Shown here: in pieces, positions 11,456-63,700 of the stretch
Position numbering within the stretch: position 1 is the first letter of the stretch
How the letters are laid out: every line of letters begins with the position of its first letter
DNA from: Amanita rubescens
Lineage: Eukaryota > Basidiomycota > Agaricomycetes > Agaricales > Amanitaceae
Direction of reading: 5' to 3'
NCBI GenBank assembly: GCA_015039365.1
Contig: WION01000100.1
Coordinates: 1-64,000, forward strand
DNA length: 64,000 nt
The notes under the pieces: generated by a model
Database searches by the model: none
The model's input: the letters and a program-made list of their open reading frames with translations, nothing else
Told to the model about the DNA's origin: nothing
Position numbers and translations under genes: made by a program

Positions 11456-13257
11456 TTACGCTCTACAAGTCAACTCACTCCCTCCGACCATCTCAATCGT
11501 CGCACCCAAACACCAACCCAACTCTGTTCCTCTAATCTTTTTACCCAACTTGATCTCCCGGTCGTCTTCAAACTCGTATCCCAACCTGAGTAGGGTATAC
11601 ATGAACGTCAGGTCGAGACACCACTCTGGCCGGTCTTCTAGCTCCGACATCACAGCTGGCTTTGTTCCCCATCGCTCAAGCCACCATGGACGGCCTTCGC
11701 ACACGTCTCGTGCGGTGCGAGCGACGGTGGATACGGTGAGGGGCTCGGGGGTGGAAGGTTCAAGTAGCGGGTGCAGACGGTCGTAAAAGTAGGATAGGAG
11801 AAGGACTTTACCGGATGGGAAGGATGTGAGGAGGGATGGTTGGTATACACCGTCAAACGAACACGGTTTTAGTTCGCATATGCTGTCAAAAAAAATCTTA
11901 GTACCATGAAATTTGATAACGTAGAAGAGGAGACTTACGCATCCTTGGCGAGCACCAACTGCATCAACCTGTTACACCCGTCGAACGAGCCAACATCCTC
12001 CCCACCCATCGTCACATTCCTCTTCTCATCTTCAATCAGCACCCTCTTCCTCGTCCCCTTGGCCAAACACGGATTACCAACAACCTCACCAACCTCCTTC
12101 CCATTAGTCCTCACCGAGCTAATAAAATCCACCAACCGATGAACATGCACCCTCGCGCGCATCAATCCATAGTCGAGATACGAATGCTGGTAGAGCACAT
12201 GATTCCTCCCGGCAAACTTGAGATCATACTTGTGCTCTCCTTCTTCCATCCTTTCCTCCTCCTTTTCAAACACGGGCTCAAACACGATTTGCGTCGACGC
12301 CCCACCTAGATCCAACACGGCATACGTCGATTTCTCCCCCTCCTGTCTTCTATCCTCAACGGAATCCTTATCCTTCCCGCTACTAGCTCCCTCTTTGATC
12401 GTCCCCATCAAATAATTCGCCGTAATCCACGCATACACCCCTTCATCCTTCCCATCCATAATCACCACACCACCACTCTCAACCAACTGAAACGGATACA
12501 CCTCCCCAATCCTCTTCCCCACCGCCTCCAAAATCTCCGCACTCTGCGTCCCCGGTAAAAGCCTCAACCCAGCCGTAGCTTTAACAGCCACAGGCGTACA
12601 CTTCCTCATCTCCTCCGGTACAACGCGCATAGCTTCCTCAAGTAAAACGTCCAAACTACGAGCTGCGTCCCCTGGAAGTCCAGCGTAGTTCGATAGACCT
12701 GGTTTAGTCATTTTGAATACTTCGTATTCAAACGTGGGTGTGGAACGGCAGTTGTTGAATTTGTAAATGTGGATGCGGGATCCGGTTGAGCCTGCGTCGA
12801 TCATGAGGGCGTATTGGACTAGAGGAAGGGAGGAAGAGTTTAGATGGGGAGTTGTGCAGTAGGTCGTTCGGGAAGGGTGAGGGTCCGAGTCGTACGTCGT
12901 TGGGTGGGACGAAGTTGACGTTGAAGTCGACGCTGAGGAAGCGGCAAAGTCGTCGTCAACATCGACGTAGTAGTGCGTGTTGGAAGTGCCGCCGGGCACG
13001 GTTGTTACTACTTCTTTCGTCGTCGTAGTACCTGGAGACACGTCAGACTCCTCATCCGAACCGTACCCATACCGCTCTTTCACCCTCGGTCCAAAAACCC
13101 ATACGAGCCCAATAAAAACGACAGCGCCGACGGCCAACTTCTTCCATGTAAACCTTGTGGAAGGACTTCCGCGTTTACCAATACCGTTGTCGTGTGGACC
13201 GCCGTACCCGCCTTCGACAAGTTCGTAGGCTCCTCCTCCATTACGATTCCGAGGCAT
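11456..13257 (-). CDS. GDA1: Golgi guanosine-diphosphatase / apyrase (GDA1-CD39 family), 581 aa
   Basis: The enzyme hydrolyses GDP to GMP in the Golgi lumen, which supports GDP-mannose/GMP antiport during glycosylation. Exon 1 is 13257-11939 and exon 2 is 11882-11456, joined through a GC|C alanine codon across a 56-nt intron. I place the start at MPRNRN; the open frame extends 59 codons further upstream, but the YELVEGGYGG start is typical. A single membrane anchor (KLAVGAVVFIGLVWVFGP, about residues 37-54) makes it a type II protein, followed by an acidic, Ser/Thr-rich stem. Apyrase-conserved regions are visible: DAGSTGSRIHIYKF (ACR1), KATAGLRLLPG (ACR2), KDEGVYAWITANYL (ACR3) and VLDLGGASTQIVFEP (ACR4). 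Cysteine-bearing segments CELKPCSFDGVYQPSL occur in exon 2. The length is normal for fungal Gda1p. Confidence 0.93.
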
Positions 13258-13716
13258 GTTCTTCGTTGATATCCGATTCCGTAGTTGCGCGTTGGAGGTA
13301 TCTAGAGCTGTGGACAGCTCCTTTTTCTGTGTGTTTAAAAGAGGGGATGATGGAAAGGAGCGATGTGGCTGTTCCGGCCCGCTTGTTGAATTTTCTGAAT
13401 TTTCTCTTTCAATTTGTGAAGGAAGAAACCGCATTCAGCACGAGCCAGAGTCTCTTCAATCGCAAGTACAGGCGTGTCAGCCACGTTGCTACGGGTTTAC
13501 TATCACACGGCTCACAGGTTTTTGCAAATATACTGGTTATTGTTATTCGCTTCATCATATTATATCTACGGTACTCTGAGATGGGTAAGTAAACGAATTC
13601 AAGAGCGCGAAAGATATTGTTGTAAATACAAGCAACGGACGATAGTACAAGTTGTAGATGCATAGGGGGTACTTGAGACATTGGGTAAAATAACGAAAGA
13701 AAGAAGAAAAAAGTCC

Positions 13717-17956: not shown

Positions 17957-18548
17957 TGTATTACTCACTTATCCATGAAGGCTAGTACAAAGGCAATAGG
18001 TTAATGATGCGAGGCGATTGGATGGTATTTGCGGTAGCACTCAGATAACCAGCCCTGTGTTAACATTGTCACTTAGTAAGAGATTGTTGGCATCAATTTT
18101 TGCAAAATTTCAACCCTCACAATAGAAAATAAACCTCTAGTACTAAATTTTGATAGTATGTCTGCCTTTCTGATTAAGCATGTCTCAAGCTGCAACTCAT
18201 CCTTCTGCTGTCCCTGTCACAACCCTATTTCTCATTTGACATGAAAAATCTGCATTAAAAAATAAATCTGTCCTATAGACAAGCACATATGTATCATTAC
18301 ATCAGAAAATAAATTTCAGGTAGAAATGGAAACATTTGAAATACATGCATGAGAAAGGGAAGGCATATGAGAAGTAGTCTAGCTCAATGGTATGGTCAAA
18401 AAGTGACCTAGGGATGATGCTGTGTGTTTCACCCTGGCATAAATGTTCATAGGTGGTGCCACATCCATAAATGAAATACATACCATCAATGTTGGTCACC
18501 TGCTTATAGAGGAATGCAACCAAATCTTGATGGCCAGAAGGCATAGAG
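17957..18548. other. Left part of the AT-rich island, possible 3' end of the G-domain gene
   Basis: Base composition shifts visibly to AT-rich at about 17960-18060. A minus-strand open frame (18616-18302) overlaps the presumed 3' exon of the gene at 18549-22675 in another frame and may be an alternative terminal exon. Nothing else is supported. Confidence 0.35.
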
Positions 18549-21500
18549 TTACGAGTAATTTTGGCTTTCAGCTTCTGAAAATAGCCATTTCTCTTGCATT
18601 GGTGCAAGGCTTCCATGACTGATGACAGGAATGGTTTCTTGATCCAAAATGATAGTTTGGCAATGAGAACAATTGCTTAAAAGTTTAAACACAAATAGAG
18701 TAAATGAAGTGCAGTGATTTACATACAAACTAAATTTTGACAGCCAGTGGGCTAATTTCAATTGCCTCAGTTTCTTATTACAAAAGAAAGATACCCCATA
18801 CAGTTACTTTATTAAGCATTTGTTCATCATCTCCAAATACATAGTAAAGTTCATGCTGATTATGAGAGAGTGTAAAACCTTTGATTTAACACTGGACCTA
18901 CACGCTAACATGACTGATATGATACAATTGATACCTCATGAATTAACATTACTCACCTAGAAATCAGGGAAAGTCACAGAGGTAAGAGAAGTGTTCCTAT
19001 AAGGTGGGATTGGATAGGCTGAAATTGAAACTTACAATCTATGAATGAAATGATGTCATACAAGAGCATAAAAGGAATGATGTTATGCATATACTCACTT
19101 TCTGATAAACAAAGGACATAATAATATGTCAAAGAATCATGGCTTGAGACAAGAATTTTCACTCACTTGCTATTAGTCATGAGAAGCAATGTGATGAGAT
19201 TGTCCTCCACAAAAGTATGCAACATCTCACTTGCTGTTGGTTGTGATGAGGCTGACTTCACAAAACCTACAGTATTGTCACTCACAAGCTATCGGTCATG
19301 AGAAAATATACAATGAGACTGCTTTCACAAAATCATGTGCATTGTCACACACTTTCTGGTAGTTGTAGAAGAAGTTGTGATGAGATTGAGTTTCACAGGG
19401 CCAGATGTGAATTATTGCTTACAAGCTATTGGTCATAGGAAAAGATGTGATGAGACTGCTTTTCACAAAAATATGTAATGCCACTCACATACTAGTGGAC
19501 ATAGAAAAAACATGTGATGAGACTGCCTTTCACAAAATGTGCAATGTCACTTACTCCCTGTTGGTCATAATGAAAGATGTAATGAGATTGCCTGCATAAA
19601 AATGTGCAATATCACTCACATCCTGTCCAGCATGTGAAAGGATGAGATGAGAGACCGCCATTCACAATAATGTGTGTGACTCACTTGCTATTGGTTGTAA
19701 AGAAGTGATGAGACTGTCACAGAAAATTGTGCAGTGCCACTTACAAACTGGTAATCAGGAAAAAAGATGTGATGATGCTGTGTTCACAAAGTGTGCAGTG
19801 TCACTCACACCCTGTTGATCATGTTTATGAGACTGCCTCTCACAAAATTGTGCAATGTCACTCACAATCTATTGGTCATAACAAAAGATATGATGAGATT
19901 ACCTTGCATGAAAATGTGCAATATTACTTACATCCTGTCCAGTATAGGAAATGCTGTGATGAGAGACTACCTTTCACAAGATGTGCAATGTCACTCACAT
20001 ACTGTTGGCCATAGGAAAAGATGTGATGACTGCCTTTCACACAGTGTACATTGTCACTCACATGCTGTTGGCCATAGGAAAGGATGTGATAAGACTGCCA
20101 TTCACACAGTGTGTATTGTCACTTACAAGCTGTTGGTCATAAAAAAAGAAGACGCAATGAGACTGTCTTTCACAAAGGTGTACATTGACACTCACTCCCT
20201 GTTGGTCATAGGAAAAGATGTAATGAGACTGTTGTTCACAAGAACATGCAATTTCACTCACTCCCTGTTGGTCATACTGCAAAATACGTGATGAGACTAA
20301 TCTTTCATGAGAACATGCAATGTCACTCACTCCCTGTTGGTCATAGTAGGAAAGGATGCACTGAGATTGCCTTTCACAAAAATGTACATTGCCACTCACA
20401 AGCTAATTTCAAAATAGTTACATCATGATACCTTGTTTCAGCAGAAATAAAGGCAATTCCCTTACTGCCACCTGTTATTAATGAATTCACAATAAGTCAC
20501 TCTTTCAGATAAAAGCTTGTTACCAACTTTCTGTTGTTGGTTGAATCACATTTGACAAACCACACAAGTGTCATGGTTGCTCACTTTCTTTTTGCAAATT
20601 TGATGTGGCATGATATGTGAATGTAAGATAAAAAAAGTGTTGTGTCACTCACTTCCTGTTGATTAGAAAATGGGAATGATGAGACTGCTTACAAAGACAC
20701 ATATGTACATATGTACTCACTTCCTGTTGGTTGCATGATGTAACATGAAACAATCCACTAGAAACTGAGCATTGCCACTCACTTCCTATTAATCATGACA
20801 CAAGAATGCTAATAATCAAAGGAAACATCACTCACAAACTATTCTCATAAGAGAAACACCAGATGTATGCTAGTTAAATGTCACATACTAACTGTTATTT
20901 ACATATACATAACATCAGATCCTGCCACCAAAGATATGATAAAAACTCACTGGTATTTCATCCAATTGTTTGCCAGACATCTGAAACATAATTTATCTTC
21001 CACAGTAAAGCATTGAAGTGTTACTTACCTCCTGTTGCATTTTGTGAACTATTTATCATTTTGTATAAAAGCTACCCACCACTCTCTCCTTCTGCTGGCA
21101 GTTAATTTTTATGCTCATATGGATATGTTGGAAGAAGATGCTGACCCAGAAATGTGGAAATTTAGCAAAAACTGTAGTAACATCACTCCACATGAAATAG
21201 TTTTTATTCATGACATGTCTGAACAAGGCTAATGTTAGAAAGAGATATGTGAATGTGAACCTCAGTGCTCACTGAATTGCAGACATAATGCAGAGATCAA
21301 GGTTATTCATCTGTGTTGTCACAAATAGTTGATGCATGCTAGCATCATCAATTATATCAGCAGTGCACTGAGTCAACTCAGGACAATTCTTCTCTGGTAA
21401 ATGCATGTCTACATATTGAGCAACATTATGTCTGTTTTGATGAAACAATGTTCATCATTCTCACCTTCCAATCGGAGATATGCCTTTGGGGGATATTTGG

Positions 21501-22675
21501 TATCCAAAACTTTAGGAAGATAAAGTGTCTGAAAAGCACTTTCAGCATTTTCCCTAGCCCTCTCCCACCTATATTTATCTTCTGAATCAGCCAAGTTGGC
21601 AAATTCCTTGATCATTTGAGCATCAAATTTGGTAAAGATAACAACCAAAGGAACTGTAATGAGGAACAATTTGCTAGTCAGTACCTTTGGTGCTTGATAT
21701 ATTATTTTTTTAAAGTGACAGCCAATCATAATGTGTGTGTGTGTGATAATATACTTGGTCAATTGACCCACCTCTGCCTGTCCCCTTGTTAAAGAATTCA
21801 AATTCTGTAGGTAAAATAGGACGAGAGCTGTCCATGGGTATGCAGTACCTTCATGGGGCTTGGTCAGCCAGTTCTGCAAAGGGCCAAAACAAAATACCAA
21901 ATTGCATGCAACTGATTTTTCAGCTCAGTTTCTGTAGATCTTGTTTCAATAAACTTCCAAACAATCTCTAGTTCCTTAGCAGAACCAGATTCAAATCCCT
22001 CAGAGTCATGAAAAATGAAGTTACTCTCAGGGTATGTAATTTGATGTTCAATATCATGTGAGCCTCTCTGTTAACAAGAAGAACAGGAATGACTCAAACA
22101 TTCATATATTATCATTTGACTCACCTCAATAGATGGGACCAAATGGGTAGTCCCAGCAGCCAATAGTTCTTTACCTATGGGGAACTGAATACTTAGAGGA
22201 AGAACCAAGTCCAGCTAATTTACCATTCTTGTCACTTATGATGGACTTTATTCCTTTTGAAACTTTCTCAAGGAAATGAGTTTCAGCAAGTATTTCACCT
22301 ACAAGGAATTGAATATTTAGAGGAAGCACAAAACTCAGCTAACTTACCATTCTTGTCATATATGATAGGCTTTGTTCCCTTTAATACACCACAGACCTTC
22401 TCAAGGATAGTTGTCTTTCCAGAATTGGCCCTCCCAATGACCAGGATGCGAAAGTGTGGGCATAGGTATCGTTCCCTGAGCATTTTAACATGTGCTTCAT
22501 CTATATCTGCAGCAATTGGCAAATAGAGACAATGCCAAGACATGAATATTGAATTACCTGGCAGTGCACTAGCAGTATTTCCCATCACTGACAATTTTTG
22601 CTTTGATGCTGGTGTGCAAGAGGGACAATGGGCGAATGGTCCTGGACTCTTGGTCAGAAAATCAGAGTATGGCAA
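18549..22675 (-). CDS. P-loop GTPase-like G-domain protein with an extreme microexon array
   Basis: This belongs to a G-domain family expanded in Agaricomycetes, probably GTP-binding; cellular role unknown. Exons I resolve: 22675-22558, 22506-22348, 22298-22224, 22174-22125, 22067-21898, 21848-21772, 21653-21465, 21393-21273, 21218-21146, 21094-21080, then 32 tiny exons down to 19036, then larger exons from about 18770. All joins to 19036 keep frame. Motifs: GRANSGKT (G1/Walker A), FIFHDSEGFESG (DxxG, G3), FTKFD (TKxD, G4), and family landmarks HAIWYCIPMDSSRP and FPHFW. The segment KLAHWLSKF lies after the array. Between 19035 and 18770 the splicing is unclear; one site there is an AG directly abutting GTGAGT (18957). 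The 3' end (stop at 18549) is provisional. The start could instead be the internal MGNTASALP. Confidence 0.7.
19036..21031 (-). repeat. Tandem array of 31 introns separated by single-codon exons
   Basis: On the minus strand every unit reads GT(G/A)AGT...(A/C)AG followed by exactly 3 nt and then the next GT. Exons (plus coordinates): 19036-38, 19099-101, 19167-69, 19231-33, 19286-88, 19353-55, 19423-25, 19489-91, 19555-57, 19620-22, 19685-87, 19745-47, 19809-11, 19866-68, 19932-34, 19999-20001, 20062-64, 20127-29, 20196-98, 20262-64, 20331-33, 20400-02, 20466-71 (6 nt), 20528-30, 20585-87, 20653-55, 20721-23, 20783-85, 20836-38, 20889-91, 20951-80 (30 nt), 21029-31. Intron lengths are 48-67 nt. 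Many introns are similar to each other (TGACATTGCACATTTTGTGAAAG-like cores, TATGAC before the AG), so they arose by tandem duplication. No exon is a stop codon, and all are in the phase set by the upstream exons. Confidence 0.8.
22125..22347 (-). repeat. Tandem duplication of an intron-exon unit in the G-domain gene
   Basis: Two successive units share sequence. Each has an exon ending GACAAGAATG, a donor followed by TTAGCTG and CTTCCTCTAA(A/G)TATTCA, and a downstream exon beginning GT(G/A)AA. The exon 22298-22224 is an extra copy relative to the family pattern, in which the exon leading into RGSHDIEHQ follows the Walker A exon directly. Both copies keep frame. Confidence 0.6.
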
Positions 22676-45515: not shown

Positions 45516-48500
45516 TCAGAGTTTCCTTCGTCTTTTATATTCTAGAAGGAGGTCTTCCATATGCGTCAAGTTATTTTCTGGTTCCCATGTGTTTTCGCTG
45601 GTGTCATAGCCTTTCCACTTTACTAGGAATTGTAATTTCCCTCTGAACTTGCGATGTGCAAGCAGTGCTTCTACTTCGTATTCTTTTTCTCCTTCGATCA
45701 GATCGGGAGGGGGCCTTGTTTCTGTTATTCCGTGAAAGGAAGTTTCTTTGAACGGCGTTAGTAAGGCGGCGTGGAATACGTTATGAATTTTCCATTGTCT
45801 TGGTAGCGTGAGACGATATGTCACTGGTCCTAAGACTTCTTTAATGGAAAAGGGACCTTCTCGTTTAGGTGCGAGCTTTCTGCTCTGATAAGGAATCTTC
45901 AGGTTCCTAGATTCTAACCATACTTTGTCATTGACTTTGAACGGTTTAGTCTTTCTCGTTGTTCTTTCCATCATCTTAGCTCGTGCTAGATCATGTGCGG
46001 CGAGTGCTTCTTCTCGTGCGCGGAACAGAGAGTTGATGCGGTTATCGGCGGTTGGTGTATTTGTCTTATTTGAGACAAGGGGAAGTGCAACCGGGGATGT
46101 TCCATACATCAATTGGAAGGGCGATTGTTTCAATGCTTCATGAGTGCGTGAATTATGCGCGAATTGTGCTATTGGTATCATCTTGTTCCAAGTATCTGGT
46201 TCATAGGCACAGAATATTCGGAGATAAGCTTCTAATTCGGCGTTATATCGCTCCGTTTGTCCATCAGTTTGTGGATGGAAGGCGGTACTCATTTTATGTT
46301 TGATCTTTAATGAGTCCATTATGCCGTTGAAGACATGTGATGCGAACTGTGGTCCTCGATCGGAGATCATGATGTCGGGTAAACCGAAGTTTTTGAATAC
46401 ATTCCGAATGTAGAGGTCGGCGGTTTCGTCGGCGGTGATAGTTTTATTACAAGGCATGAGAATTACTCCCTTTGTAAGTCCTTGATCGACCACGATAAAG
46501 ATAGAATCAAAGCCGTCACTTATGGGTAAGTCGGTTATGAAATCCATGGTTATTTGTTGAAAGGGTCGGTGTGCGTGAGACTTGATTGGCATCAGGGGTG
46601 CGGCGGTAGGGTGAGTATTTGCTTTCATTTGTTGACATGCCGTGCATCCGTCAATAAACTGTTTAACCATTTTAGACATTAATGGCCACCAGTAATATTC
46701 CTTTAATAAGGCTAGTGTTTTGAAGAAACCGGGGTGTCCGCTTGTTGGTGATTCATGAAAATCTCTAATAATATCTCGGCGAAGATCGGTGTTAGGAGGG
46801 ATAAAAGATTTCCCTTTGTATAGGATTAATTCGTCGTCGAGGGTCCAATCAGAAAGAGCTGTTCGTAAAGGCGGTGTTCCTTTTTCTTTTAGGCATTTCT
46901 TGATTGATTGAGCGAATTCATCTTTGACAGTTATTTCTATTACTCTGTCACGGAGATCTTCGGCGATCGTGCGAACAAAGAGTTCTTTTGGGAGCATTGT
47001 TATTAACTCTTCTGGTTCATCTTTTGTCATATGATCGGGTCGGCGGGATAAAGCGTCCGCTATTATTAGTTTTGCTCCGGGGACGTGCGTTAATTTAATA
47101 TTAAATCGAGACAAGTCGTTCCACCATCGTGCTTGGCGGTTTGTAAGACGTTGTGGTTCTCGATAGTAGAGTAGGTTCTTGTGGTCGCAATGAATAATGA
47201 CAGGGTGTTCTGCTCCTTCAAGCAGGTATCTCCATTCGTTGTAAAGAGCGTAGTAAATGGCGAATAACTCTCGGTCGTAGATTTGCCATCGTGTTTCAGT
47301 CGGTGTTAAAGCGTGGGATAGGTATCCGCATGGGTGTAAGTCGCCATTGTCATCCTTCTGCATGAGAACTGCCCCGATAGCGCGGTCTGATGCGTCCGTT
47401 TGTAGAATGAAAGGTTTGTTAACATCGGGCATCATTAAGACAGGCGCGGATGTGAAGCGTTCTTTTAATAGATCAAATGCGACTTGGCATTCTGCGGTCC
47501 ATGTCCATAATTTGTTTTTCTTTGTTAGGTCGTGTAGGGGTCGTGCAAGGTGAGCGAATCCGAAAATAAACCTTCGATAGTAATTTCCGAATCCTAAAAA
47601 GGATCTAACTTGTTTAACGGTAGAAGGGGTTGGCCAGTCCCTGATTCCGGCAAGTTTGATCGGGTCCATTTTTATTGTATTTTTGGATATGACGGTGCCT
47701 AGAAAATCAACTTCTTTGGCAGCGAATTTACACTTTTCAAGCTTGAGGTAAAGATCGTGTTTCTGTAATCGTTCAAGTACTTGTTTTGTTCGAATCTCGA
47801 GTTCTTCTTTAGTGCGCGCGTGTATTAGCATGTCATCCATGTAGATGACGAGCCATCCTTTTTCTGTAAAATCCCTGAAATAATCGTCCATCATAGCTTG
47901 GAACGTTGCTGGTGAATTTCGTAATCCAAAGAACATGACATTAGGTTCAAATAAACCTCGGTTGGTGATAAAGGCGGCTTTCCATCTGTCAGATTCTTTG
48001 ATTTGAACGTTATTATATCCCCAACGGATGTCCAATTTCGTAAAGTATTCCGAATCTTTGAGTTTAATCATAAGATCGGAGATAAGGGGTAATGGATATG
48101 CGTTTGGTTTAGTGTATTCGTTCAAATATCGATAGTCTTGGCAGGGTCGTAGTTTTTGTGCTTCTTTCTTCTCTACGAAGAAGAAAGGTGATGCCTGCGG
48201 TGATTTCGATGGTCTGATGTAGCCTTTTTCAACATGTTCTTTGATCCATTCATCCAGTGTGTTCTGCTGTTTCGGAGATAAGGGATAGATTTTTCCTCTT
48301 TTTGGTATGAAATCATCGCGAAGTTCTATCTGGTGATCCCAAGATCGGCTTTCCGGGAATCGTTCACTTGCTTTTTTCTCGAATACATCTTCCCATGCCG
48401 AGTATTCAGGAGGGAGCGTATAAACCTCCTCTGTTTGATGGTATTTGTGTTCCATTTGTTGAGCTGGTGTATATCGTGCGATAGTCACTTGGTCGTATTC

Positions 48501-49127
48501 GTCCTCTGACCAGCTTCCTATATCCTCAAATGTATGTGTTTTCCATCTGTGATCTGTCGTCTGTGATCCTTTGTGTGACATCAAATATCCGATGACGAGA
48601 TCTTCTTCCCATTCAGGCATAGCTATTCTGTCAATCTGTTGGCAGATGCTCCGAAGTGATGCCTTGATTTTGTCCTGTTCAGAGTCTCGGAACTCTAGAG
48701 TCTTTTCTCTCCAATTTACGTCAGGGTTATGCTTCTCTAACCAAGGAAGCCCCAGTATAACCGTTTGTTTTCCTATTGCTGATACGTAAAACCATTCAGT
48801 CATGCGTTTTCCGTTCATTTCGAAGGTGATTAGACATTGTTCATCAATTTCTCCTTCTTTGTTTATGGTGCCATCGACGTTATAAACTCTAATTGGTCGT
48901 AGAGTTTTTCGTTTTCTCCATTTATGTGCTATCCTTTTGTCGATGAACATCCCTTCGGCTCCGCAGTCGACAAGGGCAACGAGGTTTTCAGTGTCGTTTT
49001 CAGTTTCAACTTTGATAGGGACAGATAATCTTCGTTTTGAAATAGATTGTACTGTTACATGGGATATATCGAGAGTTGAATCTGGTGTATCTGAGACTTC
49101 ATCCACTGTCATGAGTCCCACTGTCAA
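45516..49127 (-). CDS. pol: Chromovirus pol: protease, reverse transcriptase, RNase H, integrase, chromodomain
   Basis: About 1200 codons, uninterrupted. Order: aspartic protease with LVDCGAEGMFID; RT with RPCQDYRYLNEYT, KLDIRWGYNNVQI and the catalytic YMDDML; RNase H with LQTDASDRAIGAVL; integrase zinc domain (H..H..CTAC); integrase core with MDFITDLP, SDRGPQFAS and DGQTERYNAELE. The C-terminal chromodomain reads EYEVEALLAHRKFRGKLQFL then VKWKGYDTSENTWEP, which by family knowledge can tether integration to histone marks. The frame is -1 relative to gag, and the two meet at a run of five T around 49130-49126. The first true ATG is at 49112, so expression could be by frameshift or reinitiation. 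Confidence 0.95.
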   Translation of the reverse strand: MTVGLMTVDEVSDTPDSTLDISHVTVQSISKRRLSVPIKVETENDTENLVALVDCGAEGMFIDKRIAHKWRKRKTLRPIRVYNVDGTINKEGEIDEQCLITFEMNGKRMTEWFYVSAIGKQTVILGLPWLEKHNPDVNWREKTLEFRDSEQDKIKASLRSICQQIDRIAMPEWEEDLVIGYLMSHKGSQTTDHRWKTHTFEDIGSWSEDEYDQVTIARYTPAQQMEHKYHQTEEVYTLPPEYSAWEDVFEKKASERFPESRSWDHQIELRDDFIPKRGKIYPLSPKQQNTLDEWIKEHVEKGYIRPSKSPQASPFFFVEKKEAQKLRPCQDYRYLNEYTKPNAYPLPLISDLMIKLKDSEYFTKLDIRWGYNNVQIKESDRWKAAFITNRGLFEPNVMFFGLRNSPATFQAMMDDYFRDFTEKGWLVIYMDDMLIHARTKEELEIRTKQVLERLQKHDLYLKLEKCKFAAKEVDFLGTVISKNTIKMDPIKLAGIRDWPTPSTVKQVRSFLGFGNYYRRFIFGFAHLARPLHDLTKKNKLWTWTAECQVAFDLLKERFTSAPVLMMPDVNKPFILQTDASDRAIGAVLMQKDDNGDLHPCGYLSHALTPTETRWQIYDRELFAIYYALYNEWRYLLEGAEHPVIIHCDHKNLLYYREPQRLTNRQARWWNDLSRFNIKLTHVPGAKLIIADALSRRPDHMTKDEPEELITMLPKELFVRTIAEDLRDRVIEITVKDEFAQSIKKCLKEKGTPPLRTALSDWTLDDELILYKGKSFIPPNTDLRRDIIRDFHESPTSGHPGFFKTLALLKEYYWWPLMSKMVKQFIDGCTACQQMKANTHPTAAPLMPIKSHAHRPFQQITMDFITDLPISDGFDSIFIVVDQGLTKGVILMPCNKTITADETADLYIRNVFKNFGLPDIMISDRGPQFASHVFNGIMDSLKIKHKMSTAFHPQTDGQTERYNAELEAYLRIFCAYEPDTWNKMIPIAQFAHNSRTHEALKQSPFQLMYGTSPVALPLVSNKTNTPTADNRINSLFRAREEALAAHDLARAKMMERTTRKTKPFKVNDKVWLESRNLKIPYQSRKLAPKREGPFSIKEVLGPVTYRLTLPRQWKIHNVFHAALLTPFKETSFHGITETRPPPDLIEGEKEYEVEALLAHRKFRGKLQFLVKWKGYDTSENTWEPENNLTHMEDLLLEYKRRRKL

Positions 49128-60114: not shown

Positions 60115-60735
60115 TGTTAAGAGCTTACTGGAGCTGGGGCTCAACAGTAGACAGTAGAGAGGATAATAGGATAAGGATTGACGCTACTAGAGTACAGTTT
60201 ATATACTACTAAACTACAAATAAGTACAAAGAGTCTTATCAGTATGAGTCAAAGGTATTTGACTCATAAGGCGTCATTCCACAGCAATGCACAGCTATTG
60301 TACAGCAATGCATAGCTTTGCGCAGCACTTGACTCATCAATTATATTGACTGACTCATCACATTATCAATCTTCAATGTGATAGGTCGATAACCATAACG
60401 TATATATGTCTTCTATTCTCATGTCAACATATATTCACATCATCAATAGTTCCACTATTATGATTGGATGATCTTATGAGAATATCGCTAGGATATTCTC
60501 ATGTCAGAATATGTTCTCATCATCAATCATCCACTATTATGATTGGTAGATGAGTATGAGAATATGTCGAATATATTCTCATGTCAATATATTATCTCAC
60601 ACTCAATCATCCACTATTATGATTGGTTGAGAGACGAGTAAGTAACTGAGCGTTATTACATTAGTTAGTGTAAACTAATGATATTACTTATATTTACTAT
60701 ATACTGTATGTATATTGTATATTATAAGTTTAACA
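60115..60735 (-). repeat. LTR of a Ty1/copia element (3' LTR, minus orientation)
   Basis: 621 bp starting TGTTAA and ending TTAACA (6-bp terminal inverted repeat). Its right end is followed by a minus-strand purine tract and the pol stop codon. The other LTR is outside the window, so a target duplication cannot be tested; the left flank is GGAGT. It contains three tandem units of about 75-80 bp (60415-60640). Confidence 0.75.
60415..60640. repeat. Three tandem hairpin-bearing units inside the copia LTR
   Basis: Each unit contains ATTCTCATGTCA, then TTC(T/A)CATCATCAAT, then CCACTATTATGATTGG, then a GATGAG(T)ATGAGAATAT arm that can pair with the next ATATTCTCAT. Confidence 0.6.
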
Positions 60736-60750: not shown

Positions 60751-63700
60751 TTATTTATTAGCTTTCAAAAGGGTAGTCAATTTATCATTTTCTCTTTCAT
60801 AGTATTTAAAGATTTCTTCAAGATATCCTCGCACTTCAAGATCTTGAATTCTTTCAAATATTTTACTATGTTGTCCTGGGGACTTATTAAGGGTTTTACT
60901 TTTAATATAATTAGCAAAAGTTTGTGATGCCTTAATATGATTAGTTAATGATATTTGACTATCATCAAGGATTAATCCCATCTTCATTCGGAATATTACA
61001 AATTTTGAATATGGTAAATTTTTGGTCATTATATCCGCAACTTGTTCATTGGTAGGAATGTATGTGAGTTTAATTTTCTCACTTTCAACACATTCTCTAA
61101 TGTAGTGGAATCTTATATCAATATGTTTTGAACGATGTTCTTGTGCAGGATTACTAGCTAAGAACATTGCACCTTGATTGTCACAACATAAGAAAATAGT
61201 TTTAATTGGAAAATCAAGTTCACTCATAAGTGACTCAATCCAAACTATTTGTCTTGATGTATCAGACATTGACATATATTCTGCTTCAGTTGAAGACAGT
61301 GCCACTACTTTTTGTTTTCGCGAAACCCATGATATAGCTCCTCCTGCGAGTTTTACTATATATCCAGTGACAGATTTTCTTGTAATCTTGTCAGCACCCC
61401 AGTCAGCATCAGTAAAGGCTACAAAGCCTTCTTTATTTAAACCATTATAAACTATTTTAGTTTGTACAGTGGTATTAACATAGCGTACTATGTATAATGC
61501 TTTCTGTATGTGTTCTTCATTTGGATTTGCACAAAACTGAGACATTAATATTACTTGATAAGTAATATCAGGTCTTGTTCCTAATGCAAGATATAACAAC
61601 GATCCTATTATTTGTTGAAAATAAGATCGCATTTCTGCTGTACATTCTTTTGTAGCAGCAGTTGGAATATATCCTGTTGGTAAAGGTGTACGAGTTGGTT
61701 TACAATTTTCTAAACCAAATCTTGTTACAACCTTCTTAGCGTATGCATGTTGATCAATAATAAGAGTACCCATGTTCTTATTATAATTGATTTGCATACC
61801 TAAGTATTCTTTAACTTTTCCAAGATCATGACATTCCCATTTCTTCATAAAAGCATTTTTAACTTTATGAATTTCTGGTGTATTGTCACCCATGAAAAGC
61901 ATGTCATCGACATATACTATACACACTATTATAGTGTCGTCTTCTCTTCTGACGTATACGCCAGAATCAGATAAACAGCGTATAAATCCTAAATCCTCTA
62001 AGGATTTATTAGCTTGTTTATTCCAGGCATATGAGGCTTGTTTAAGTCCATATATTGCCTTTTTAAGTTGGTAAACTTTTTGTTCTTGGCCTTTGACTAC
62101 ATAACCTTCTGGTTGTTGCATATAGATATCCGCTTCGAGATCTCCGTACAAAAAGGCTGTTTTAACATCTAGTGCTTCAATATCCCATTTTTCTAGCACA
62201 GATATTGCTAACAAAAGGCGAATCGTTTCATATCTTGCCACTGGCGAAAACGTTTCATCATAGTCAAGTCCAGGTCTTTGAGAAAATCCTTTAGCGACAA
62301 GTCGAGCCTTCTTTCGACCGTCAGATTTAATATCATATACCCATCTACATTTAATAGGTGTACGATTATGAGGTAATTCTGCAAGCTCCCAGATTTTTCT
62401 ATCATTCAATGATTTCATTTCATCATTCATTGCTGTCTCCCATTGTTCATAAGATTTGGGATCAGCAATTTTGACTTTTTGAATATCTTTGTATTGATAT
62501 TCTCTGATATTATCTCTTGAAATATCAATGGCAGGAATTGCTTGTGCGAGTAAGTAATTCAGAAAACCATTACCTTGCTCTTTAATGAGACATGACATTT
62601 CATTAATTTGAGCATTGTGTAATGTTGAATAAAGTATTTTAACTTTATCAATATGTTGTCGTATTCTAGATCTGAGAGAATATCTGATTGTAACATCAAG
62701 TCTTGGATCAGATTTATCTTTTTCTTTAAGATCTTGAATCAATTCTCGAACAACATCTTGTTCTTCTGTAATTTCTTTTTCAATTTCTAATGGTGTTTTA
62801 TTACCATAAGCATTGTCTTTCTGTATAACCAGTTTTCTAGATCTTTCAGATCTTCGAGTAGGTTCTACAGGTTTTTTAGCAGTTCCTTTGCCTTTTCCTT
62901 TAGTAGGTTTATCTTTAAGACTTTGTACAGGTAGATCTAATTCAACGCCTGTAGGTTGATCTAATTCAGCACCTTTGTCTTTTGAAGATGTATCTTTCTT
63001 TTCAAAGAAAGATTCTAATTTATCATCCCATTTAGTGTCATCATCATCATCATCTGATGAATCAGAACTAGGATGATTTTCAAAGTTGAAATCAAAGAAA
63101 TCATCATCTGAATGCTGCTGTTCAGATGAAATATCTCCTTCATTATCTGGTTTACCATCAGAGATATTTTTATCTGAGTTTTCAGAATTATCCTGCTCAA
63201 TAGGCCTGATAGGGTCCAAGTTTTTTGTATAATTTTCATCTTGAGGTTTGGCTCTTGGAAATTTGGTTTCATCAAATTCAGCTTGGGTGGATACTCGAAG
63301 TTGATTTGTATTTGTCATGAAGCGGTATGCTTTTGCATTCGGTTCGTATCCAATAAAGGTCATTATTTCAGACCTTGGTGTTAATTTATTTTCGCGCGAT
63401 TCATGTGGGATAAATACCCAGGCTTTAGATCCGAATATCTTAAAGTAAGAAACATCAGGTTTCTTTCCAGTAAGATTTTCAACAGGGGTCTTCCATTTGG
63501 TTCATCTAAGTGGAGTACGATTATAAACATGTACGGCAGTTTCGATCGCAAAGTTCCACCAAGATTGAGGGCATGAAGCATGTAATCTCAATGCTTCACT
63601 TTTTTCCCAAAGTGTTCTATTCATGCGTTCAACCTTTCCATTTTGTTGATGTATATATGGAGTAGATTTTTCATGAATAATTCCTACATCAGTTAAGTAA

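Follow-up and report, generated by a model that had tools for sequence, protein, structure and literature searches.

Can a segment of a protein be spelled out one codon per exon? The question is raised by a locus of the basidiomycete Amanita rubescens, on contig WION01000100.1 of assembly GCA_015039365.1, of which we analysed positions 1 to 64,000 (this whole stretch of 64,000 nt is called the window). On the minus strand of the window, inside a gene with a P-loop domain, a splice-chain parser found 33 exons at 21091-19036, separated by 32 introns of 48-67 nt, and 30 of these exons are exactly 3 nt long. We consider it likely that this is a working P-loop (GTPase-like) gene, in which individually spliced one-codon exons would encode a hypervariable peptide.

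Read along the minus strand, on which all parts of the gene lie, the chain begins with its one 12-nt exon (21080-21091, encoding KERV), followed by a lone triplet GAG (21029-21031) and by its one 30-nt exon in phase 0 (20951-20980), which encodes MSGKQLDEIP and aligns with MANKQLSEAQ-like sequences of the family. The rest of the chain consists of 29 exons of 3 nt and one of 6 nt. Seven leading 3-nt exons (20528-20891; individually 20891-20889, 20838-20836, 20785-20783, 20723-20721, 20655-20653, 20587-20585 and 20530-20528) carry TTA TTT GAA GAA GAA AAA AAA and read L F E E E K K, where the family consensus is W F E Q G K K. The variable part (19167-20471 in the parse) opens with the 6-nt exon GTGGCA (20471-20466) and continues with 3-nt exons starting at 20402, 20333, 20264, 20198, 20129, 20064, 20001, 19934, 19868, 19811, 19747, 19687, 19622, 19557, 19491, 19425, 19355, 19288, 19233 and 19169; the triplets are CTT GGA GGA GGA CTT CAT TAT GAT ATT GGT TTT CAA GAT GGA TAT CTT AAA CTT CAA CAA. 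Two trailing 3-nt exons, AAA (19101-19099) and ATT (19038-19036), close the array at 19036-19101 and are common to several, not all, family copies. All 33 predicted exons are multiples of three, and no stop codon occurs among the triplets. The original prediction for this locus had listed the same 30 exons of 3 nt, one of 6 nt and one of 30 nt, with introns of 48-67 nt and no stops in the tiny exons, and the parse reproduced it exactly; the exon of 15 nt that it placed next to them is more likely one of 12 nt, because family copies have a 12-nt exon there (VDRE, VDRN or VDRK).

The parser gives no reward for exon length (1-40 nt allowed in the window run), for frame or for absence of stops. 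Its splice-site weights were learned from array junctions; the training junctions had been selected with 3-nt spacing, while the weights themselves are blind to exon length. The same parser was applied to a near-identical sister copy of the array (contig C268) and to six other loci. The sister copy yielded 30 three-nt exons with a chain score of 358, versus a mean of 0.33 three-nt exons, a maximum of 2 and a best score of 43 in 30 dinucleotide shuffles of it; dinucleotide shuffles of five parsed loci gave no more than four three-nt exons each. From the reverse complement of the sister copy we obtained a chain of 8 exons and from its reversed sequence one of 37 exons, mostly of 16-17 nt, and neither peaks at 3 nt. 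Reverse-complemented loci gave short chains; reversed loci gave chains of up to 63 exons, with lengths other than 3 nt (on C207, 16 nt in 27 of 63), and such long chains arise because the repeat period survives reversal. Tandem Repeats Finder reports 19426-20401 of the window as a tandem repeat with periods of 63-66 and 134 bp and 66-77% matches.

Persistence and diversity in the array family

The assembly that contains the window (75.7 Mb, 786 contigs) holds a large family with this P-loop domain: counting duplicates, at least 254 exon-level matches reach E ≤ 0.001. Array DNA gave at least 169 matches in the genome, which we grouped by eye into about 34 loci; we analysed 31 arrays, two of which were pieced together from overlapping stretches and several of which are near-duplicates, plus six further members. 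With the parser allowing 1-60 nt, 1,461 of the 1,659 exons parsed in the 31 arrays, near-duplicates included, were 3 nt long, with 22 to 79 such exons per locus; these chains include certain parsing noise, chiefly on C495 and C134, where a long insertion splits the array. The six further members have 7 (C72), 6 (C1), 29 (C535), 41 (C10), 46 (C73) and 72 (C207) three-nt exons. A count independent of the parser agrees in exon length: the junction CCAACAG-NNN-GTGAGTGACATTG occurs 1,084 times genome-wide, near-duplicate contigs included (519 forward, 565 reverse; 0 in a backward control), while among the lengths 2, 3 and 4 that were searched the same junction with NNNN occurs 6 times and with NN 13 times, 10 of these on contig C749. 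The triplet between acceptor and donor (the slot) begins with T at 143 of the common junctions. A second stretch of array junctions lies on the window's own contig (C3:127056-135582), spread over about 8.5 kb.

The strongest evidence comes from two members in which the repeat origin is nearly erased. Intron interiors on C10 are 0.731 alike, versus 0.711 for shuffled partners, and on C73 0.735 versus 0.726; still, 41 of the 56 exons parsed on C10 and 46 of the 52 on C73 are 3 nt long. Here the splice sites and the 3-nt spacing have outlived their surroundings. Since the junctions persist despite the divergence of the introns, removal of the array as one intron fails to explain them, and individual splicing does.

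Young arrays, in contrast, have units every 65 bp and show how variable the slots are. Mean intron diversity is 0.004-0.040 per site, with single sites up to 0.28, while diversity at triplet positions is mostly 0.45-0.71, being lower at some positions of C13 (0.10, 0.22) and C604 (0.22); units spaced exactly 65 bp were counted, and 13 of 14 loci, some overlapping, had sufficient numbers. Thus, as the original prediction had held, the array does not behave as a neutral minisatellite: young triplets far exceed introns in variability, and the junctions on C10 and C73 outlast the repeat similarity. We compared 5' flanks for the 23 of 31 arrays with a usable 5' region, considering pairs under 6% divergence. 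The flanks of C254 and C257, two recent dispersed copies, differ at 3 of 784 sites (99.6% identical), yet their slots are the same in 9 of 31 cases, which is the shuffled level; other close pairs exceed shuffled slot sharing (C604 and C82, 0.62 versus 0.38). The similarity of C257 and C228p to the C254 group stops about 370-400 nt beyond a point in the C-terminal exon. In the near-identical trio C254, C769 and C228m, 30 of 36 slots are common in order, and the changes include replacements of whole codons (CGA to ATC, GAA to CGA).

One such replacement has a visible source. In one slot C311 reads CAA, with GTGAGTGACATTG as the intron start, while C134 reads CTT with GTGAGTAATATTG, and the latter junction matches another unit in the same array. 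With the rest of the intron unchanged, this is a clear case of a short conversion tract spanning the slot, the single instance in which conversion is seen. C311 and C134 show another CAA to CTT change, which comes without such an intron marker, and for a GTT to CAA change between C190 and C229 a donor is not visible. Counts from here on that are described as non-redundant omit the near-duplicates C228m, C769, C667, C120, C134, C495 and C599; C749 is further omitted from triplet counts, C749 and C13 from adjacency and codon usage, and arrays with slots that are not multiples of three from frame counts. Adjacent slots are identical in 127 of 818 cases, a number that none of 2,000 shuffles reached (mean 95, maximum 125), and C146 has an internal repeat longer than in any shuffle of it. 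Single-unit duplication or conversion does contribute, and most neighbouring slots still differ. Block shuffling between loci was considered as the main source of diversity and rejected: among 22 arrays few words are shared beyond the shuffled level (words of four slots, 22 versus 13.6 shuffled with a maximum of 23, which is borderline; of five slots, 3 versus 1.4; of six or more, none). The order of slots is largely array-specific. Their codons are drawn from a narrow choice: in the array slots alone, CGA makes up 120 of 138 Arg codons, CTT 107 of 133 Leu codons and GGA 118 of 124 Gly codons, and 1,109 of 1,201 slots end in A or T.

These observations suggest how the arrays could work. Each intron of 48-67 nt would be removed singly, by intron definition, and every 3-nt exon would add one residue to the protein; as the exons are phase 0-0, any of them could be included or skipped without loss of frame. 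The peptide would start with the conserved W F E Q G K K, vary in the middle and end in a K I shared by part of the copies. Exchange between units would homogenise the introns of young arrays while the codons remain diverse, and exchange tracts crossing a slot would replace its codon and leave the frame untouched. The outcome would be a short hypervariable peptide differing among family copies, as in recognition proteins. We regard the chances as about even that the introns are a disposable recombination scaffold for codon-level diversification of a recognition-like gene family, with three-nt exons numbering from about 20 to nearly 80 per gene and possibly with combinatorial exon skipping in addition. 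Codons that are diverse while their surroundings are homogenised usually point to diversifying selection, and the diversity is most likely maintained by selection; both this selection and any recognition role are what we infer.

An alternative to this part of the reading, though not to splicing, is that the codons, whether or not they are translated, are varied by mutation targeted to the AG-NNN-GT junction, and that selection for diversity is weak or absent. It would account for slot strings that are completely different between flanks differing by 0.4%, for multi-nucleotide slot changes in place and for the slots of C749, which vary in length while most introns stay at 62 nt. However, length-variant slots occur in arrays with near-identical introns, where mixing of reads in the consensus could make them, and gene conversion accounts for one swap. 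Moreover, in four older pairs the ratio of slot to intron change is 1.2 to 4.3 (5.2% versus 3.3%, 2.7 versus 0.7, 4.3 versus 1.0 and 2.2 versus 1.8, with 3-12 changed slot bases in each pair, a few possibly misaligned). We therefore see slot-targeted mutation as improbable, while giving it more weight than any other competing explanation. As for C749, the slot-specific length noise of its array (C749:1500-6600) reflects either consensus mixing or targeted mutation.

Weighing the evidence for splicing

Several points weigh against the view that the slots are spliced and translated as codons. That view we infer from DNA alone. No intronless copy (retrocopy) was found when the family was searched for one. 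In the four older pairs just described, slots change as fast as introns or faster and mostly non-synonymously, which indicates no purifying selection on the variable codons. Across the 14 arrays whose predicted peptides were examined for it, helical periodicity is not consistent (lowest shuffle fraction 0.053, highest 0.987). Slots of 1, 2 and 4 nt are many in C749, where introns are mostly 62 nt and one slot may be zero, and a few slots of odd length occur in C13, C254, C599 and C537. Such lengths could be decay or assembly noise, through consensus mixing of reads in arrays with near-identical introns; frame-preserving slots of 6 nt are present in C190, C229, C124 and others.

The leading codons and the stops also call for caution. 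In an alignment of the 5' part in 21 copies (eight arrays omitted, two more without anchor), the seven leading micro-exons are TGG in 18 copies, TTT in 21, GAA in 20, CAA in 16, GGA in 20, AAA in 19 and AAA in 20, a figure for seven exons selected after the fact; all 14 early micro-exons have a diversity of 0.147 versus 0.180 for intron bodies (p 0.07), a slight difference, which places the conservation in the first of them. Stops are nearly absent from the DNA of the slots: the 1,084 common-junction slots contain one TGA, no TAA and no TAG, and in 14 arrays classed as older there are 0 stops in 643 triplets versus 23.6 expected from stop trinucleotides in the introns of five of these arrays. 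The one TGA, on C537, is nevertheless a stop in a slot. Further, TNA triplets that are not stops are rare as well (TTA 1 and TCA 2 of 1,461), and we attribute this to the overlapping donor GTNAGT, so that the lack of TAA and TGA may partly be a splicing effect; in non-redundant data stop depletion is not significant when set against splice overlap (Fisher p 0.15). As the expectation ignores splice constraints, we do not rest the case on stops. On balance, those parts of the one-codon-per-exon interpretation that DNA can test hold, and other family copies strengthen the case made first for the window.

It may be asked whether the arrays are neutral intronic minisatellites, each lying within one large intron that is removed whole, with the junctions as relics of a founding unit. 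Young arrays are indeed 65-bp tandem repeats, and skipping of the whole array would likewise keep phase 0. On the other hand, all positions of such a repeat should drift alike, whereas triplets vary far more than adjoining sequence; AG-3nt-GT junctions persist in C10 and C73 after repeat similarity is nearly lost; and the common junction is 3 nt long in 1,084 cases versus 19 of length 2 or 4. We find this explanation very unlikely. Recursive splicing, in which one long intron is removed stepwise via internal sites and the triplets are dropped, deserves no more credence. It would hold internal splice sites under selection, and an acceptor adjacent to a donor does look like a recursive site. Known recursive sites, according to PMC13149111, have zero nucleotides between acceptor and donor (AG|GU) and lie mostly in very long introns, whereas here 3 nt separate AG from GT and the array is about 2 kb; neither the near-exclusive length of 3 nt, nor the conserved leading triplets, nor the hypervariable slots are predicted by it.

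Two explanations remain that concern the origin of the arrays. Near-identical introns might have been inserted, like introners, between the codons of a normal exon, and the same 62-nt intron is present at many loci, within the family's arrays as examined; still, one would not expect insertions to fall precisely three nucleotides apart, the choice of codons in the slots is narrow and the intronless copy was sought in vain, which leaves this origin highly doubtful. An assembly artefact, for which near-duplicate contigs and an rRNA contig of what we take to be arthropod-like look might speak, is the least credible of all, given that the window array is near-identical on three contigs and another array on C79, C667 and C239 (C79 and C667 differ by one unit), and that arrays with unlike introns cannot be products of collapse.

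Host gene, frame and neighbourhood

Upstream of the array, the P-loop motif GRANSGKT is encoded in an exon at 22348-22506, identified from the sequence and by family comparison. A possible first coding exon (22558-22585, MGNTASALP..) was read from the sequence; in a pattern search the same MGN start was found in no other copy with a matching P-loop pattern, but in the window only. The remaining exons of the P-loop domain, placed in the family frame with boundaries set by hand, occupy 21146-22298 (22298-22224, 22174-22125, 22067-21898, 21848-21772, 21653-21465, 21408-21273 and 21218-21146) and end in FPHFW. The P-loop signature G-x4-GKT is present as GRANSGKT in the window, and as GRANAGKT in 9 and GRALAGKT in 1 of 11 sequences chosen by P-loop pattern. 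No GTPase family of Pfam scored above its curated cut-off (MMR_HSR1, 17.2 bits versus 21.9), and Pfam searches with the joined 309-aa part and the 88-aa C-terminal part gave nothing above cut-off (nSTAND_NTPase5, E 0.11); the best sequence match in PDB was GTPase Der (E 0.0011).

Downstream of the array, an alignment of the 3' part in 17 copies, including the sister copy of the window array (ten without anchor, four more skipped), defines the exons that follow. In the window these are a 48-nt exon HELYYVFGDDEQMLNK (18808-18855), phase 0 on entry and exit; a 25-nt exon (18727-18751) encoding PTGCQNLV plus one base, entered in phase 0 and left in phase 1, the frame of which was picked by eye using synonymous changes among copies; and an exon IVLIAKLSFWIKKPFL... 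(18484-18675), probably not the last, which completes the split codon and reads IVLIAKLSFW. Across the family the counterparts are HELFSMFGDKQRNFAVK, then PTDCQVLV-like and AIIIIAKLSFW-like sequences. The KLAHWLSKF with which coding had been thought to resume after the array is thus in a wrong frame. Phase 0, as first proposed, stands: the array is entered after the 30-nt exon, and left, in phase 0, between family-wide exons.

Parts of the ordinary flanking exons look to be under purifying selection, and the genes look functional: the ratio of non-synonymous to synonymous differences (pN/pS) is 0.29 over 26 codons of the C-terminal exon (153 pairs) and 0.22 over 30 codons of the P-loop exon (11 sequences), both values being somewhat lowered because copies were chosen by motifs. 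Reading the slots in succession gave stops in 1 of 576 codons in frame 0, 2 of 559 in frame 1 and 37 of 559 in frame 2. Openness alone does not decide between frames 0 and 1; therefore the phase of the flanking exons decides. Contiguous coding across the array was rejected: none of the six frames of a perfect repeat of the unit stays open, the longest open run being 59 codons. In the window array itself there are open runs of 171 codons on the antisense and 114 on the sense strand.

Elsewhere in the window, on the minus strand, there are an open reading frame (ORF) with a GDA1/CD39 nucleoside phosphatase domain (11935-13434), a Ty3-like reverse-transcriptase ORF with RVT_1, integrase and chromodomain (45516-49127) and a Ty1-like reverse-transcriptase ORF with RVT_2 (60751-63363); a tandem repeat with an 80-bp unit (2.7 copies) is at 60414-60630. 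The only 5.8S rRNA match in the assembly is at C566:8299-8481; with its AT-rich spacers it is presumably arthropod-like, suggesting contamination, e.g. from an insect carrying or farming a fungus.

Comparison with known systems

If the reading is true, dozens of serial 3-nt exons are accurately spliced, contrary to the assumed limits on small exons, and intron definition becomes directly testable. It would also mean a new route of protein diversification, in which the constant scaffold is intronic and thrown away, and would bring to light coding sequence of a kind likely to be missed by standard annotation and read mapping. As each codon is flanked by presumably neutral sequence, the arrays are a natural experiment on the tract length of gene conversion. 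If translation failed, the array would be an unexplained intronic repeat.

In the open-access literature (most subscription papers and all preprints being outside its scope) we found no account of 3-nt exons following one another in long series, in line with the lack of precedent claimed at the outset. Nor did we come across a known system in which part of a protein is written in one-codon exons, or in which introns form the constant scaffold around hypervariable codons. In transcription activator-like effectors (TALEs), near-identical repeat DNA carries a hypervariable codon pair per unit; these are bacterial, and the repeat is translated. Unlike fungal NOD-like receptors (NACHT-WD40), which have translated WD40, ANK or TPR repeats and a STAND nucleotide-binding domain, the gene has no domain of that type above the Pfam cut-off in the parts scanned.

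That exons this small can be spliced is feasible: PMC12940212 and PMC8831610 describe 1-nt exons, spliced according to RNA reads, in Fusarium CYP621A and in plant APC11 and VPS55. As described there, these exons are conserved and single; they do not form long runs and are not hypervariable.

On a stricter view, the array could be an extreme, independent form of micro-exon gene (MEG), a class with secreted or membrane-anchored products. In architecture, the MEGs of schistosomes come nearest to it. According to PMC5825161 and PMC10526429, schistosome MEGs have their coding sequence largely in consecutive short exons, mostly multiples of three, an architecture proposed to generate protein variation, and the window array shares with them its tandem in-frame micro-exons (33, predicted). 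Exon sizes for MEGs are given there as 6-36 bp (PMC5825161) and as 6-81 bp or 3-81 bp, depending on the text (PMC10526429); at 3 nt, 30 of the 33 window exons are outside the first two ranges and at the edge of the third. The MEG introns in these sources are 100 to almost 5,000 bp long and variation comes via alternative splicing, whereas the window introns are of 48-67 nt, the exons belong to a P-loop gene, and the variation observed lies in the genome, from one family copy to the next.

In its pattern of evolution the family comes closest to the recognition genes het-d and het-e of Podospora. Their WD40 repeats, according to PMC1805685, evolve concertedly within and between members, with four residues per repeat under diversifying selection; in Amanita, likewise, units homogenised within and between loci carry hypervariable codons. 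The difference lies in the fate of the scaffold: in het-d and het-e it is a translated WD40 structure, while here it would be intron, removed to leave the variable codons.

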